Shown here: piece by piece, positions 50,963 to 60,536 of the stretch
How positions within the stretch are numbered: the first letter of the stretch is position 1
Layout of the letters: the number at the start of each line of letters is the position of its first letter
DNA from: Bradyrhizobium roseum
GTDB lineage: Bacteria; Pseudomonadota; Alphaproteobacteria; Rhizobiales; Xanthobacteraceae
Length of the DNA: 64,000 bases
Reading direction: 5' to 3'
Assembly: GCF_030413175.1 (NCBI RefSeq)
Contig: NZ_CP129212.1
Span: forward strand, 5,184,450-5,248,449
Translations under genes and position numbers: made by a program
The notes under the pieces: model-generated
Database searches by the model: none
Seen by the model: the letters and a program-made list of their open reading frames with translations, nothing else
What the model was told of the DNA's origin: nothing

Positions 50963-51067
50963 CGTCATTCCGGGATGGTGCGTCAGCACCAGACCCGGAA
51001 ACTCTCCATACGTCACGCGGCCCAATGGATTCCGGGTTCGATGCTCCGCATCGCCCAGGAATGACGG
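50963..51067. repeat. Dispersed repeat (GTCATTCCGGG family), copy 1
   Basis: CGTCATTCCGGG at one end and, inverted, AGGAATGACG at the other, with ATGGATTCCGGGTTCGATGC inside. The same layout is at 57511-57614. Confidence 0.75.
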
Positions 51068-55258: not shown

Positions 55259-55987
55259 TCAGGTCATCCCCGCCGGCCGCGGCACCGTCGAGCGCAGCAT
55301 CGCATCCAGCAACTGGTCGACGTCGGCGCCCGCGGGCAACCGGCGCAGAATGTCCTGCAGCCGCCCGTCGAGCAGCAGCGTGGTGAAGCCGTGCACCAGC
55401 GACCATGCGCGCGCGATCGCAGCGGCCTGGTCGAGCGTCAGCATCTCCGCGGCGAGCGATTCGTTGCGCCCGGCGCCGACCGCGCTCGCCAGTCCTTCGA
55501 AAGACGCCGAGGCCGCCTCGTGCAGCGAAGGCCGCGACATGTCGAGCCGCTCAGTCCGGAACATCAGCCCGTACATGCCAGGATGCGCCCGCGCATAGCC
55601 GACGTAAGCCTTGGCGTTGGCCAACCCCTTCAGCAGCGGATGGGTTTCGCTGTTGCGAGCCACGATCATTGCCGCGTTGAAGCGGCGGAAGCCGATGGCC
55701 GCGAGCTCGCTCAGAAGCCCGGTGAGATCGCCGAAATGATGGGTCGGCGCGGCGTGTGACACGCCGGCTTCGCGCGCCACCGCCCGCAGCGTCAGGCCCG
55801 CGAGCCCGTCGCGTTCCAGCACCCGCTCGGCGGCGGCGAGCAAGGCGTCGTGCAGGTCGCCGTGATGATAGGGGGTCTCGCCGGCCGAAGGGCGACGCGA
55901 ACTCGCGGGCCTTTGCGTGGCTGACTTCGCCGGCCTGCGCTTCGCAGGGGGGCGAATGGTTATGCTTTTTTGGGAGGTCTTTGCCAT
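55259..55987 (-). CDS. TetR/AcrR family regulator
   Basis: 242 residues: a basic tail (residues 1-40), TetR helix-turn-helix (LLAAAERVLERDGLAGLTLRAVAREAGVSHAAPTHHFGDLTGLLSELAAIGF) and a TetR_C_33-type ligand domain (YVGYARAHPGMYGLMFR). It is divergent from the carotenoid oxygenase gene with two operators between, and the same operators lie before 58186, so it probably controls both units and itself. ATG 55987 preferred to upstream 56059. Confidence 0.87.
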   Translation of the reverse strand: MAKTSQKSITIRPPAKRRPAKSATQRPASSRRPSAGETPYHHGDLHDALLAAAERVLERDGLAGLTLRAVAREAGVSHAAPTHHFGDLTGLLSELAAIGFRRFNAAMIVARNSETHPLLKGLANAKAYVGYARAHPGMYGLMFRTERLDMSRPSLHEAASASFEGLASAVGAGRNESLAAEMLTLDQAAAIARAWSLVHGFTTLLLDGRLQDILRRLPAGADVDQLLDAMLRSTVPRPAGMT

Positions 55988-56005
55988 GCGACTCCTTATA
56001 GCCGC

Positions 56006-56080
56006 GATTTTTACACTGTAAAGATTTTGCTTGACGGCGGCCCGAAACAAACTTACCAATATCTTTACGATGTAAAGATA
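56006..56080. promoter_or_regulatory. Paired TetR operators, carotenoid-oxygenase promoter
   Basis: Site B (56060-56080) is a perfect 9-3-9 palindrome with arms TATCTTTAC and GTAAAGATA around GAT. Site A (about 56006-56026) is a weaker version (TTTAC-ACT-GTAAAG core). Their centres are 54 bp apart. Between them TTGACG (56031-56036) is a likely -35, with the -10 just before or inside site B. The same arrangement recurs at 58096-58169. Confidence 0.8.
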
Positions 56081-56099
56081 TAACGGAAGGAAACGTCAG

Positions 56100-57503
56100 A
56101 TGCTCGACCAGGTGAAGACCGAGATGCCCCGGACCAATCTGGCGCCGATCCCGATGGAGTGCGACGCACCCCATCTCAAGGTGACCGGCGAACTGCCGCG
56201 CGAACTCAACGGCACGCTCTATCGCAACGGTCCCAATCCGCAATTCGACGCGCCCGGCGCACACTGGTTCGTCGGTGACGGCATGCTGCACGCCTTCCAT
56301 CTGGAGAACGGCCGCGCCAGCTACCGCAACCGCTGGGTCCGTACCCCGAAATGGCTGGCCGAGCACGACGCCGGCCGCGCGCTGTTCGGCGGTTTTGGCC
56401 GAAAACTGCCGGGGGCACCGGCCGGCACCACCGATGACGGCGGCGTCGCCAACACCAACATCATCTTCCACGGCGGAAAGCTTCTGGCGCTCGAAGAAGG
56501 CCATCTGCCGACCGAGATCGAGCCGGGCTCCCTCAAGCGAACCGGCTATTGCGACTACAACGGCGCCATCAAGGGTCCGTTCACGGCGCATCCCAAGATC
56601 GATCCCGCGACCGGCGAGATGGTTTTCTTCGGCTACAACGCCGCCGGCCCGCTCACCCCTGCTCTCTCGTTCGGATCGGTCAACGCGGAGGGCGTGGTGA
56701 CGCGGTTCGATCGCTTTGAATCCCCTTATGCCAGCATGGTGCACGACTTCATCGTGACCGAAAATCACATGCTGTTTCCGATCCTTCCCATCACCGGAAG
56801 CATGGAGCGGGCGATGCGCGGCAAGCCGCCTTACGCCTGGGAGCCCGAAAAAGGCGCTTACGTCGGAGTCATGAAGCGCAACGGCGCGACCAAGGACCTG
56901 GTCTGGTTCCGCGCCGAAAGCTGCTACGTCTTCCACATCATGAATGCGTGGGAGGAAGGCAACCGCATCATCGCCGACGTAATGCAGTTCGAGGAAGCGC
57001 CGCTGTTCCCGCACCCCGACGGCTCGAAGACCGATCCGAAGAAATCGCGCGCCTGCTATTGCCGCTGGACGTTCGACCTTGCTGGCAACACCGACCGTTT
57101 CACGCAGACCTATCTCGACGACCTCACCGGCGAATTCCCGCGCATCGACGACCGCCGCGCCGGCTTCGCCAACAGCCATGGCTGGTACGCCTGCGCCAAT
57201 CCTGACCTGCCGATGTTCGGCGCGCTGTCCGGCATCGTGCATGTCGACGGCAAGGGCAAGCGGCTCGCCAACTATCTGCTGCCCGCCGGCGATAGCATTT
57301 CGGAGCCAGTCTTTGTCGAGCGCGGTGCTGATGCCTCCGAAGGCGACGGCTGGCTGCTCGCCGCCGTCTGGCGCGCGCAGGAGAACCGCAGCGATCTGGC
57401 GGTATTCAACGCGCAGGATATCGAAGCCGGCCCGGTGGCGCTGGTGCATCTCGGCCATCGCGTGCCGGATGGTTTTCACGGCAACTGGGTCGGCGCGGCG
57501 TAA
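56100..57503 (+). CDS. Carotenoid oxygenase family protein
   Basis: 467 residues, a full-length carotenoid/stilbene cleavage dioxygenase. The four iron-binding His are H164 (FTAHPK), H215 (MVHDF), H279 (VFHIMNAW) and H460 (GFHGNW). These enzymes split double bonds of carotenoids or phenolic stilbenes (lignostilbenes). No signal peptide, so cytoplasmic. GGAAGG precedes ATG 56100. Under the paired TetR operators. Confidence 0.92.
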   Translation: MLDQVKTEMPRTNLAPIPMECDAPHLKVTGELPRELNGTLYRNGPNPQFDAPGAHWFVGDGMLHAFHLENGRASYRNRWVRTPKWLAEHDAGRALFGGFGRKLPGAPAGTTDDGGVANTNIIFHGGKLLALEEGHLPTEIEPGSLKRTGYCDYNGAIKGPFTAHPKIDPATGEMVFFGYNAAGPLTPALSFGSVNAEGVVTRFDRFESPYASMVHDFIVTENHMLFPILPITGSMERAMRGKPPYAWEPEKGAYVGVMKRNGATKDLVWFRAESCYVFHIMNAWEEGNRIIADVMQFEEAPLFPHPDGSKTDPKKSRACYCRWTFDLAGNTDRFTQTYLDDLTGEFPRIDDRRAGFANSHGWYACANPDLPMFGALSGIVHVDGKGKRLANYLLPAGDSISEPVFVERGADASEGDGWLLAAVWRAQENRSDLAVFNAQDIEAGPVALVHLGHRVPDGFHGNWVGAA

Positions 57504-57510
57504 GCACCCT

Positions 57511-57614
57511 CGTCATTCCGGGGCGATGCGATAGCATCGAACCCGGAATCCATTTATCCGCGTGCATGCGGCTCGATGGATTCCGGGTTCTCGCTTTGCG
57601 AGCCCCGGAATGAC
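57511..57614. repeat. Dispersed repeat (GTCATTCCGGG family), copy 2
   Basis: CGTCATTCCGGGGCGATGCG at the left and, inverted, CCCCGGAATGAC at the right, with ACCCGGAATCC / GGATTCCGGGT inside. It lies between the carotenoid oxygenase and MAPEG genes and matches 50963-51067 in layout. Confidence 0.8.
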
Positions 57615-57637
57615 AACCATCGATGGAGGAAACACCC

Positions 57638-58045
57638 ATGCACCTGCCCTCGATCACCTCAGCCTATCTCGCCATCCTCGCCCTGCTGTACACCGTGCTC
57701 GCCGTCCAGGTCGGGCGGCTGCGCCAGCGCGATCGCGCTGCATTCGGCGACAATGGAAGTCTTCGCCTGCGCAGCGCGATCCGCGCCCATGCCAACTTCA
57801 TCGAATACGTGCCGATCATCACGCTGATGGTGGCGATGCTGGAAATGTCCGGACTGGCGGCGGTGTGGGTGCACCTTCTGATGGGCGCGCTGCTGGTCTC
57901 GCGTCTCTTGCATCCGCTCGGCATGTACGCAGCTCCCAACACGCTGCAATTCCGCATCGGCAGGGTCGGCGGCATTGCGATCACGCTGGTTTTACTGCTG
58001 GCCTGCGCCCTGACGATCCTGCGGCGCGTGGCGACGGGCCTATAG
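57638..58045 (+). CDS. MAPEG family membrane protein
   Basis: 135 residues, four TM helices, MAPEG pattern (SAYLAILALLYTVLAVQVGRLRQR, RSAIRAHANFIEYVPIITLMVAMLE with the conserved R-x-H-x-N-x-x-E). The family includes glutathione-dependent membrane enzymes. GGAGGA precedes ATG 57638. Follows the carotenoid oxygenase, with a repeat element between. Confidence 0.88.
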   Translation: MHLPSITSAYLAILALLYTVLAVQVGRLRQRDRAAFGDNGSLRLRSAIRAHANFIEYVPIITLMVAMLEMSGLAAVWVHLLMGALLVSRLLHPLGMYAAPNTLQFRIGRVGGIAITLVLLLACALTILRRVATGL

Positions 58046-58095
58046 TAACCCGCAAGATATTGATAAAATTACATATTACAAATCTCTTCGCCTCT

Positions 58096-58169
58096 CATTT
58101 TGACACTGTAAAGATTTTCCTTGACGACCGCAGGCCTCACCCCTAGTGTATCTTTACGATGTAAAGATA
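58096..58169. promoter_or_regulatory. Paired TetR operators, second promoter
   Basis: Site B' (58149-58169) has the same two 9-bp arms and GAT spacer as site B. Site A' (58096-58116) contains ACACTGTAAAGATTTT as in site A. Centres are 53 bp apart. TTGACG (58121-58126) and TAGTGT (58144-58149), 17 bp apart, form a likely promoter ending at site B'. Confidence 0.8.
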
Positions 58170-58185
58170 AGCCGAGGAACATGCC

Positions 58186-58764
58186 ATGACCATCTTCCTG
58201 ATCCTTGCCCCCTTTGGTTCCTTCGCGCTGTTGATGCTGGTGACCTCGGCCGGGACCGCATTGTTCGCATCAGCGGCGATCTGCCTCGCCGTGGTCGGGA
58301 TCGACATGGCGCGTGGCCGCACGGTCAAGATGCTCAGCGCCGGCAGCGTCGTCGTCTTCTCCGGCATCGGCGCGTATGTCACGCTGGTCGACCCGAAACT
58401 GAGCCATTCGGCGGTGAAAATCGCCGTCGATGTCGGCGTGCTCGCGATCTCGCTGGCCTCGCTGATCCTCCGCAAGCCGTTCGTGCTGCAATACGCGCTG
58501 GAGGAAGTCGATGCCGAAACCGCCAAGATGCCCGGCTTCCTGAAGTCGACCTATATGATCACCTGGGCCTGGACCGGCGCCTGCGTGCTGATGATCGTCG
58601 GCCACGTGCTGACGATTTACGTGCCCGGCTTGCCGTTGTGGGCCGGGCTGGCGATTGCCTTCGCCGCCCGCAACTGTGCCGCCTACTTCACGACATGGTA
58701 TCCTCAATATTGCAAGGCCAAGTATGCCACGCCGCCGGCGAACGCCCTGCCCGGTGCCAACTGA
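58186..58764 (+). CDS. Integral membrane protein
   Basis: 192 residues with about five or six TM helices (APFGSFALLMLVTSAGTALFA, AAICLAVVGIDMA, MLSAGSVVVFSGIGAYVTL, IAVDVGVLAISLASLIL, MITWAWTGACVLMIVGHVL). No domain recognised. GCCGAGGAAC precedes ATG 58186. First gene of the second TetR-controlled unit. Confidence 0.75.
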   Translation: MTIFLILAPFGSFALLMLVTSAGTALFASAAICLAVVGIDMARGRTVKMLSAGSVVVFSGIGAYVTLVDPKLSHSAVKIAVDVGVLAISLASLILRKPFVLQYALEEVDAETAKMPGFLKSTYMITWAWTGACVLMIVGHVLTIYVPGLPLWAGLAIAFAARNCAAYFTTWYPQYCKAKYATPPANALPGAN

Positions 58765-58817: not shown

Positions 58818-59375
58818 ATGAAGGACGTATTCGCCAAACTGGGCGCCGACTTTTTCTCCACCATCCTGTTTCTCGCGATCTATCTCGCCACTGACAACGT
58901 GCTGCTGGCGACGGGCGTTGCGATTGCCGGCGCGGTCGCACAGGTGATTTACGCGCGCGTCAAGGGCAAGGAGCTCGGCTACATGACGTGGGCGAGCCTC
59001 GCGCTCGTCATCGTGCTGGGCAGTGCGACGCTGCTGACGCATGATCCTCGTTTCGTGTTGGCAAAACCCGCCATCGGGCATTTCGCGATCGGCGCCATCA
59101 TGCTCAAGCGCGGCTGGATGCTGCGCTACCTGCCCCCGATCGTGACCCAGACCATTCCCGAATACGCGACGCTTGCGGGCTACGCCTGGGCCGCGCTGAT
59201 GTTCGTGCTCGGCGCCGGCACCATCGGCGTCGCCATGACGGGCGACATGAAGCTGTGGACGTTCTATGTCACCGTCGTGCTGGTCGGCGCCAAGATCGCC
59301 GCCTTCGCCATTCAATACATCGTGTTTCGTGTTCTGGTCGGCAGCCGGCTCCGCGCCGCCGCCCAGCGCGCCTGA
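58818..59375 (+). CDS. YciB/IspZ-family (septation-like) membrane protein
   Basis: 185 residues with about five TM helices and the family features FFSTILFLAIYLAT, YARVKGKELGYMTWASLALVIVLG, HDPRFVLAKPAIGHFAIGAIML. YciB-type proteins sit in the inner membrane and affect envelope or division. The assignment is by resemblance. It follows the 58186 gene by 53 bp and is likely co-transcribed. Confidence 0.75.
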   Translation: MKDVFAKLGADFFSTILFLAIYLATDNVLLATGVAIAGAVAQVIYARVKGKELGYMTWASLALVIVLGSATLLTHDPRFVLAKPAIGHFAIGAIMLKRGWMLRYLPPIVTQTIPEYATLAGYAWAALMFVLGAGTIGVAMTGDMKLWTFYVTVVLVGAKIAAFAIQYIVFRVLVGSRLRAAAQRA

Positions 59376-59503: not shown

Positions 59504-59800
59504 ATGGCCGTGGACGGAAACTGGAACATCACCATGAGCACGCCGATGGGCGAGCGCAAGGCGACGCTGACGCTGGCGAGCGCGGGCGGCACGTTGACGG
59601 GCACCCAGGGCGCCGACGGCAATTCCGGTGAAATCTTTGACGGCACCGTCAACGGCGACGACGTCGCCTGGAAGATCTCCATCACCAATCCGATGCCGCT
59701 CACCCTCGCCTTCACCGGCAAGGTTTCCGGCGACAACATGACCGGCGAAATGGGCATCGGCCCGATGGGCAGTTTTCCCTTCACGGGATCTCGGGCCTGA
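59504..59800 (+). CDS. Conserved small hypothetical protein
   Basis: 98 residues, all-beta in appearance (GNWNITMSTPMGERKATLTLASAGGTLTGTQGADGNSGEIFDGTVNGDDVAWKISI) with a repeated lipocalin-like strand pattern. No signal peptide. GGGGAG precedes ATG 59504. Function unknown. Confidence 0.7.
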   Translation: MAVDGNWNITMSTPMGERKATLTLASAGGTLTGTQGADGNSGEIFDGTVNGDDVAWKISITNPMPLTLAFTGKVSGDNMTGEMGIGPMGSFPFTGSRA

Positions 59801-59849: not shown

Positions 59850-60536
59850 CTAGAACCAGATCTGCATTGCCAAGCCGCAGGCATCGCGCGGCGGTATGTC
59901 TTCCGGGACACAGCCGGCAGTATCGCGCGCGGCAATCGCCACGGCGCAGGCGTCGAGCACATCGTCGGCTTTGGCGCCGGTGCCGATGCGGTCGACCGTC
60001 AGCCATCGATCGATAGCCCGGATCCCTTGCCGCTCGAGCAGCAGATGACGGAGCGTGAATCCTTCTTCGGATTTCTTTGACGGAAGCGGCCTGCCGCCGT
60101 TGAGGCGCAGGAACACCAATTCCGGATGAGCTTCGCGAATGTCGTCCGCGCGATGGGCCTGGACGAAGGCATCCACTTCCATGATCTTCGGCCCGAGATG
60201 CCAGAGCTGACGCGACACTTTCTTCTGGCCGCGCCGCAAGGCGTCCTGGTTCGCCTCGTCAGGATCGGAAAATTCTTCCCACAACCAGCGCCGCGCCCCG
60301 GTGAATACGCGTGACGAATGCGGCCGCAGCCGCTCGCGGGCAAGCCGGTCGCAGGCCCGCTCACCGTCATCCGTCATGCCGATGGGAATATCGATCGCCG
60401 CGCGGTCGAAGCCGGCGGAGAGCGCATCAGCAATATCGCGGCAGAACCTGATCTCGTGAACGTCGCCGTCGAGCAGCACGGCCACCCAGCCCTTGCTGAA
60501 CCCGTCGAGACCGAGCGCCTTTGTCCGTGCGCTCAC
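59850..60536 (-). CDS. DUF429 domain protein
   Basis: 228 residues with DUF429 features: GLDGFSKGWVAVLLDG at the start, FDRAAIDIPIGMTDDGERACDRLARERL, and KADDVLDACAVAIAAR near the end. These look like an RNase-H-like fold (predicted nuclease). Its ATG overlaps the MaoC stop by 4 bp, so it is the last gene of the fumarase operon. Confidence 0.85.
   Translation of the reverse strand: MSARTKALGLDGFSKGWVAVLLDGDVHEIRFCRDIADALSAGFDRAAIDIPIGMTDDGERACDRLARERLRPHSSRVFTGARRWLWEEFSDPDEANQDALRRGQKKVSRQLWHLGPKIMEVDAFVQAHRADDIREAHPELVFLRLNGGRPLPSKKSEEGFTLRHLLLERQGIRAIDRWLTVDRIGTGAKADDVLDACAVAIAARDTAGCVPEDIPPRDACGLAMQIWF

Follow-up and report, generated by a model that had tools for sequence, protein, structure and literature searches.

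Background

In Tn10, the gene of the TetR-family repressor is divergent to tetA, tandem tet operators lie between the two genes, and the repressor is autoregulated. The locus described here lies in a 64,000-nt stretch of Bradyrhizobium roseum DNA (the window, in which all coordinates are given unless stated otherwise) and consists of a TetR-family gene, tetR, its operators and their target genes. It resembles Tn10 in its divergent repressor gene, in the two palindromic operators of the intergenic region and in its proposed autoregulation. Unlike in Tn10, the operators O1 and O2 form a cassette of ~53 bp around a core promoter that is repeated away from tetR, its O1 is asymmetric throughout, and efflux pumps are not the main targets.

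MbdR of Azoarcus sp. CIB is likewise a TetR-family protein that acts at several promoters of its own cluster, has several predicted operators at its own promoter and is released by an inducer, as is predicted here; its operator is ATACN10GTAT, its inducer is 3-methylbenzoyl-CoA, and the part of that report available to us mentions no fixed bracket of the O1-O2 kind (PMC4424350). In Novosphingobium, the repressor Saro_0803 controls nov1, a gene of the carotenoid-oxygenase family, from a site near the -10 box, which is similar to the arrangement here, whereas Saro_0803 is of the MarR type, has one 22-bp site and responds to resveratrol, as far as the accessible part of that paper goes (PMC10046596), and the enzyme in the window is without the stilbene residues. 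The window enzyme shares its sequence family, four histidines and Phe-59 with LSD and NOV1 and differs from them in having Phe for Tyr-101 and Glu for Lys-134. The families of Z-ISO (NnrU), ABA4 and carotenoid isomerase recur in other genomes beside distant TetR relatives or behind O1-O2 pairs; none of them is in the regulon of the window, and their bacterial members are putative in function. Among the literature matches listed, which gave titles and the starts of abstracts, there was no paper on this TetR or its operator, subscription journals being mostly uncovered and the absence unproven.

The system is genuine, is conserved in Bradyrhizobium and some relatives, and is of an ordinary kind, with a TetR as local repressor; unusual is its portable two-operator cassette. 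A sequence-only reading of the window had proposed a TetR micro-regulon made up of tetR, the oxygenase gene with a MAPEG gene behind it, and a unit of membrane protein and YciB, each of the two loci having a two-site promoter, and the analysis below upholds that composition and layout, with binding by TetR as its predicted part. The result is a predicted set of regulator, operators and targets that a single strain would suffice to test, and the genus is one of legume symbionts.

Operators and promoters in the window

The features that carry the argument are the following; MEM192 denotes a gene for a probable membrane protein, discussed below.

55262-55987, minus strand: tetR, TetR_N and TetR_C_33 domains, 242 residues, divergent to the oxygenase gene
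55995-56000, minus strand: candidate tetR -10, TATAAG, 17 bp from the CTTTAC in O1, tentative
56023-56018, minus strand: candidate tetR -35, CTTTAC, inside O1
56006-56026, plus strand: O1 of the tetR/oxygenase promoter, an asymmetric operator copy that overlaps the candidate tetR -35
56031-56036, plus strand: -35 of the oxygenase promoter, TTGACG, a TTGA[CT] motif 4 nt after O1
56054-56059, plus strand: -10 of the oxygenase promoter, TACCAA, 17 bp after the -35
56060-56080, plus strand: O2 of the oxygenase promoter, perfect 9-3-9 palindrome directly after the -10 and over the expected start point
56100-57503, plus strand: carotenoid cleavage oxygenase, RPE65 family (PF03055, 444 bits)
58096-58116, plus strand: O1 of the MEM192 promoter, a match to the looser consensus
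58121-58126, plus strand: -35 of the MEM192 promoter, TTGACG
58144-58149, plus strand: -10 of the MEM192 promoter, TAGTGT, its last base common with O2
58149-58169, plus strand: O2 of the MEM192 promoter, the same 21 bp as at 56060-56080

The two O2 sites are indeed the identical, perfect 9-3-9 palindromes that the sequence-only reading had reported, each reading TATCTTTACGATGTAAAGATA over 21 bp, and they are the only perfect palindromes of their kind in the 7.3-Mb genome of the strain (G000). The number expected from 100 dinucleotide shuffles of the window was 0. A strict pattern, searched over the whole genome at up to 3 mismatches, returned these two sites and 56006-56026 only, while the reversed-pattern control returned 0. 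A looser consensus at up to 2 mismatches returned five sites, namely, the four at the locus and one at genome position 2,514,587; the latter (G000:C1:2514587-2514607, 2 mismatches) is isolated and probably due to chance.

Upstream of each palindrome, the same reading had noted TTGACG and a further shared stretch, with centers 54 and 53 bp apart. These were confirmed, with TTGACG at 56031-56036 and 58121-58126, ACACTGTAAAGATTTT at 56013-56028 and 58103-58118, O1 centers at 56016 and 58106, and O2 centers at 56070 and 58159. It had not stated outright that the upstream ACACTGTAAAGATT is part of a second, asymmetric operator, O1 (56006-56026 and 58096-58116). The locus has four operators, two per promoter, in the order O1, 4 nt, TTGACG, 17 bp, a TAnnnN hexamer and O2. 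The candidate tetR -10 is tentative because TATAAG overlaps an AAGGAG stretch that resembles a ribosome site and would leave almost no leader.

The cassette and its TetR gene in related genomes

Loci (L-numbers), genomes (G-numbers) and genera (g-numbers) were compared with G000. In the genus, 195 genomes were scanned for the operator at up to 2 mismatches and 40 loci were extracted around listed sites (operator-first loci). Independently of the operator, loci were chosen by similarity of the TetR protein (TetR-first loci; best 80 of 108), of which 79 were usable after L273, cut too short, was left out; their TetRs are 64-83% identical to that of the window, are closely related and overlap with the genus sample. 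For the family, 149 genomes were searched for the site at up to 3 mismatches and for TetR at E ≤1e-30.

The operator was found in 188 of the 195 genus genomes, compared to six genomes, once each, for the reversed-pattern control. Together with a shuffle expectation and a genome control of 0, this rejects a chance palindrome. No site at up to 2 mismatches was found in G030, G041, G048, G090, G101, G165 and G190; four of these were retested with the looser pattern, yielding two pairs in G030 and none in G041, G048 and G190. The order tetR, O1-O2, oxygenase was present in 39/40 operator-first loci, the other, L045, having a different target.

An operator scattered without any link to TetR genes would have spoken against a regulon, and this was not what was found. 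In the TetR-first loci, an O1-O2 pair adjoins tetR in 78/79, facing the oxygenase gene in 73 and MEM192 in 5; the 79th, L277, has O1 beside tetR and no second site within 3 mismatches. Two pairs were present in 64 of these loci and a single pair in 15, and the genes recognised were the oxygenase (73), MEM192 (73), YciB (74), P98, a small conserved protein (75), and MAPEG (32). In the family, site and TetR occurred together in 32 genomes, the site alone in 7, TetR alone in 7 and neither in 103 (Fisher p = 4e-19, which overstates the case as the genomes are phylogenetically non-independent); without the genus of the window, the counts were 25/7/7/103 (p = 2e-15, with the same non-independence). 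When the TetR-only genomes were read by eye, diverged O1-O2 pairs were seen in G280 and G256 (54 bp apart) and in G215 (53 bp), with G277 similar, and G263 showed two diverged copies at a spacing of 33 bp; none was seen upstream in G198 and G236, the TetR match of the latter being without its N-terminal part. Two of the seven site-only genomes, G282 and G300, were examined for the target genes, which were not seen.

The TetR protein itself exceeded the cut-offs for PF00440 (37.9 bits; cut-off 24) and PF13305 (55.1 bits; cut-off 26.8), and its closest solved chain is 3on2 (E 8e-26), named only 'probable transcriptional regulator'. At 21/24 positions of its helix-turn-helix (residues 64-87), 75 or all 76 of the homologues share one residue.

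The geometry of the cassette was measured on 133 O1-O2 pairs, no two alike in sequence, drawn from the window and 89 other loci (80 of these 90 have a pair); the consensus was derived from the same data, spacings of 35-70 bp were allowed, and the strand was assigned by TTGAC. As the pairs were selected for having both sites, the TetR-first loci are the fairer test for the presence of O1. Center spacings were 53 (49 pairs), 54 (37), 52 (35), 55 (7), 51 (2), 42 (2) and 56 bp (1), so that 131/133 fall within 51-56 bp and the two at 42 bp are 11 bp, or about one helical turn, shorter; in these two (L064 and L160), a TACGAC/TACGAT within O2 falls 17 bp from the -35, as read from the sequence. The TTGA[CT] motif begins exactly 4 nt after O1 in 130/133 pairs (3 nt in two, 5 nt in one), and a TA follows the -35 after 17 nt in 121 and 18 nt in 11, with neither in one. 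At position 4 of the outer arm, 132/133 O2 sites have C, compared to T (92), A (29), G (8) or C (4) in O1, whose inner arm has G at the mirror position in 133/133; from this asymmetry, O1 is probably the weaker operator. The two O2 copies are identical in only 5/53 loci with two pairs, and what is conserved is the architecture and not the letter identity of the two O2 operators.

The pairs comprise 74 that are divergent, facing tetR, and 59 others (among the latter L129, whose tetR may have been cut off by a contig end). On the tetR strand, a TATA lies 17-18 nt from the CTTTAC in O1 in 63/74 divergent pairs and in 0/59 others. In the 67 TetR-first loci with both the oxygenase gene and MEM192, O2 was found within the 78 bases preceding MEM192 in 64, and O1 accompanied it in 64/64; neither was found before MEM192 in L230, L250 and L268. 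Because O1 is kept there, away from tetR, it would be more than an autoregulatory site. A composite promoter pattern matched 16 of 397 genomes of the order, all in the family of the window and 14 in its genus, although this strict pattern misses variant operators.

The oxygenase and the ligand

The oxygenase gene is the only RPE65-family gene in the window genome (single match at E ≤1e-5), and its four iron-binding histidines are kept in 68/68 homologues. Its best NCBIfam and PDB matches are lignostilbene dioxygenases (PDB 5j53, 6xm6 and 6ojr), whereas it scored 419 bits against a cut-off of 800 for the lignostilbene dioxygenase equivalog of NCBIfam and 307 bits against 675 for NF052295 (apocarotenoid/carotenoid oxygenase), placing it outside that equivalog as well. 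According to the part of the report available (PMC8191317), Tyr-101 and Lys-134 of LSD4 form hydrogen bonds with the 4-hydroxyl of its substrate. With positions transferred from an alignment to NOV1, Phe-59 is kept in 68/68 homologues, Tyr-101 is replaced by Phe in 66 and Ala in 2, and Lys-134 by Glu in 65 and Val in 3. A 4-hydroxystilbene substrate is disfavored because this Tyr/Lys pair is replaced, which does not by itself prove an apocarotenoid; on these residues, an apocarotenoid-like ligand is favored over a phenolic stilbene. In the earlier description of the enzyme as cleaving apocarotenoids or phenolics, the stilbene or phenolic half is disfavored.

The genome has two reaction-center genes and four CrtI-family genes above cut-off, a squalene/phytoene-synthase gene among them. 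At ~2.05-2.09 Mb of G000, CrtI, synthase and reaction-center genes occur together, and the strain appears to be a photosynthetic, carotenoid-making Bradyrhizobium. In two other loci (L123, 1450-3368; L125, 9599-11521), a second, distant TetR (~30% identical) and a second oxygenase (~40%) adjoin MEM192-YciB-P98, and no operator of the TATCTTTACGATGTAAAGATA type was found there within 3 mismatches. In G077 (L167, 6276-7672), the oxygenase matches in two pieces, possibly reflecting a break.

The membrane-protein unit and other targets

The second promoter precedes a unit of three genes:

58186-58764, plus strand: MEM192, hydrophobic, predicted all-helical, no Pfam family
58818-59375, plus strand: YciB/IspZ-like membrane protein (PF04279, 61.8 bits; cut-off 28.7)
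59504-59800, plus strand: P98, conserved small protein at the end of the unit, in 75/79 TetR-first loci

MEM192 is probably a membrane protein; against NF041646 (VC0807 family), it scored 22.4 bits, where the cut-off is 65. The YciB-like protein falls below the cut-offs of the five NCBIfam septation equivalogs listed and is a YciB-like relative. As both weakly match NF041646, the two were considered as paralogues and this was not supported, with an hhalign probability of 2% (the MEM192 alignment being trimmed of rows that run on into YciB) and nothing from BLASTP.

In 10/74 divergent pairs, from six genera, tetR faces MEM192 directly (L102, L106, L111, L123-L126, L131, L133 and L162), and for this reason the membrane genes look older. 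MEM192, YciB and P98 appear to be the oldest targets, with the oxygenase, with or without MAPEG, a later addition. The simplest reading would be an ancestral tetR-MEM192-P98 unit into which the oxygenase gene was inserted, a copy of the cassette being kept before MEM192; loss of the oxygenase instead of insertion is the alternative order. No MEM192 was recognised at L120 and L121, and in G286 it is ~13.6 kb away with its own O1-O2 pair (L115 and L116). In G030, MEM192 is reduced to a remnant (L162, 2005-2181), and that genome has a MEM192-like fusion elsewhere.

This fusion has 726 residues, which from ~200 on best match the carotenoid isomerase/phytoene desaturase families, below their cut-offs. 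Its N-terminal domain aligns with MEM192 (hhalign probability 96%, E 2.5e-9, 126 columns) and not with YciB. A relative in G065 (70% identity) lies behind a pair 56 bp apart. The fusion was found in 4/98 genus genomes, with O1-O2 in L181 and L182, and is absent from the window genome at E ≤1e-100. MEM192 and the YciB-like protein are tied to carotenoid-type enzymes by the shared cassette, and MEM192 also by gene fusion; the target set repeatedly joins membrane proteins to carotenoid-type enzymes.

Other genes lie behind the cassette as well. One is an MFS_2 transporter (G173), and another is a short YciB-like frame of g26, where four loci have pairs and the frame was read in L103 only. In G128 and G017 the gene is an M20-family amidohydrolase, in both cases beside a second M20 copy. 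The tandem copies (L045, 5339-7905; L155, 4119-6660) are ~85% alike, with only one directly behind the two-operator cassette, making them a natural pair for comparing a regulated and an unregulated copy. A single operator precedes DUF2306 membrane-protein genes (Pfam) in L109 and L134; by eye, L104 and L135 have the same protein start, and these four loci, from two genera, lie near frames that look gyrA-like or ssb-like by eye. In G083, a full-match single operator (L159, 4827-4847) with no partner site closely follows a TATACCATA-like stretch; read by eye, an rpoC-like frame precedes it and an alpha/beta-hydrolase-like frame lies downstream. The cassette before unrelated genes, with its spacing kept, provides a natural series on how two repressor dimers would act at one promoter.

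Among distant relatives of TetR, one on a Caballeronia plasmid (47% identical) has two diverged sites 54 bp apart, with 4 mismatches each, before an NnrU-family gene; Z-ISO enzymes are annotated as NnrU-domain proteins, in the portion of the source at hand (PMC9505123). In Microvirga (L185, 43%), two diverged sites 33 bp apart face an ABA4-like gene, and the facing gene is also ABA4-like, by eye only, in two g24 genomes (43-45%) and G198 (36%). For a Rhizobium relative (48%), the spacing between its two diverged sites is 52 bp.

Proposed mechanism and alternatives

Given the recurrence of sites, spacing and targets, we consider it likely that a repressor of the TetR_C_33 type acts through this fixed cassette on its own gene and on a small regulon, with two dimers bracketing the promoter and a hydrophobic inducer releasing them. 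By analogy, one TetR dimer would bind O1, immediately ahead of the -35, and another would take O2, which closely follows the -10 and covers the start point; the two would sit on one face of the DNA, about five helical turns apart. Occupying both sites at once, they would bracket the RNA-polymerase site and shut the promoter, which would explain why O1 is constantly before the -35 and O2 after the -10. At the divergent copy, O1 would also cover the candidate tetR -35, providing autoregulation. The inducer, most likely apocarotenoid- or polyene-like, would release the dimers, turning on the oxygenase (and MAPEG where present), which would cleave the inducer molecule, and MEM192-YciB-P98, which may hold or move the inducer or protect the membrane against it. 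One common ligand for the whole regulon is plausible.

Several findings weigh against this mechanism. In the family, TetR stands without a site at up to 3 mismatches in seven genomes, and the reverse holds in another seven. Targets include the non-carotenoid M20 amidohydrolase, MFS_2 transporter and DUF2306 genes, the Rhizobium TetR relative faces a hypothetical gene, and that of Caballeronia insecticola (43%) faces an FAD-monooxygenase-like gene. Of the fusion homologues at 51-53%, L184 is without an operator and L183 is truncated at its start, by a contig end ~46 bases past the match. The NnrU- and ABA4-like families take their names from other members, and the bacterial genes here may have another role. 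Finally, spacings near 3, 4 and 5 turns suggest joint action in helical phase, but the 53-bp spacing is partly fixed by the distance between -35 and -10, the phase resting mainly on two 42-bp and two 33-bp cases, and the promoter by itself could account for most of the constancy.

As to the signal, the same regulon might answer to a plant phenolic or stilbene, with the oxygenase a lignostilbene-type dioxygenase. The best database matches of the enzyme and the control of NOV1 by a resveratrol-released MarR-type repressor (PMC10046596, in the part available) point that way, but this is unlikely in view of the 419 bits of 800, the replacement of Tyr-101 (66/68) and Lys-134 (65/68), and the carotenoid- or membrane-type look of several other targets. 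Doubtful, if still a serious contender, is a membrane- or envelope-stress regulon in which MEM192-YciB-P98 holds the true function, the oxygenase is an unrelated passenger and the ligand is a membrane-active compound. Such a regulon fits the pairs in which tetR faces MEM192 directly (10/74), the YciB-like, DUF2306 and MFS_2 targets and the optional MAPEG (32/79), whereas the oxygenase is present in 73/79 TetR-first loci and a carotenoid-isomerase-like enzyme occurs separately, in a fusion with a MEM192-like domain that also lies behind this cassette. This fusion is also the reason for a broader and rather speculative proposal, in which the TetR lineage of Alpha- and some Betaproteobacteria would sense carotenoid-breakdown products, with MEM192, ABA4-like and NnrU-like proteins as membrane partners or enzymes of polyene modification. 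If true, this would be an unrecognised bacterial apocarotenoid response and would offer a first clue to the function of several unnamed membrane families.

As to the promoter, O1 might serve only tetR autoregulation, with O2 alone repressing the forward gene and the pairing incidental, as the TATA at 17-18 nt from the CTTTAC inside O1 in 63/74 divergent pairs might suggest. We regard this as very improbable, since O1 stands with O2 before MEM192 in 64/64 loci and the tetR-type TATA is found in 0/59 non-divergent pairs. It is also unlikely that the two dimers interact, bending or looping the promoter instead of simply bracketing it. The spacing is narrow, and its exceptions are about one or two turns shorter, at 42 bp twice and at 33 bp, with diverged sites, in Microvirga L185 and in L193 of G263; against this, the core promoter also constrains the spacing, bending 53 bp is costly, and, to our knowledge, TetR proteins do not generally bridge dimers.

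Neighboring genes and local elements

The remaining features of the locus lie between and beyond the target genes:

57512-57614, no strand: palindromic repeat element between the oxygenase and MAPEG genes, nested inverted repeats
57638-58045, plus strand: MAPEG-family membrane protein (PF01124), no operator of its own
59853-60536, minus strand: P228, conserved 228-residue protein, convergent to the MEM192-YciB-P98 unit, which it also adjoins closely in several relatives

MAPEG was recognised in 6/40 operator-first loci and is an optional passenger. The repeat could attenuate or process the transcript, and a piece related to it is found at 51027 of the window. In L127 (6850-10490), the gap between the oxygenase gene and MEM192 holds, by eye, frames resembling a two-component system, a methyltransferase and a membrane protein, and the methyltransferase-like frame starts like the gene that faces the distant TetR relative in L193.

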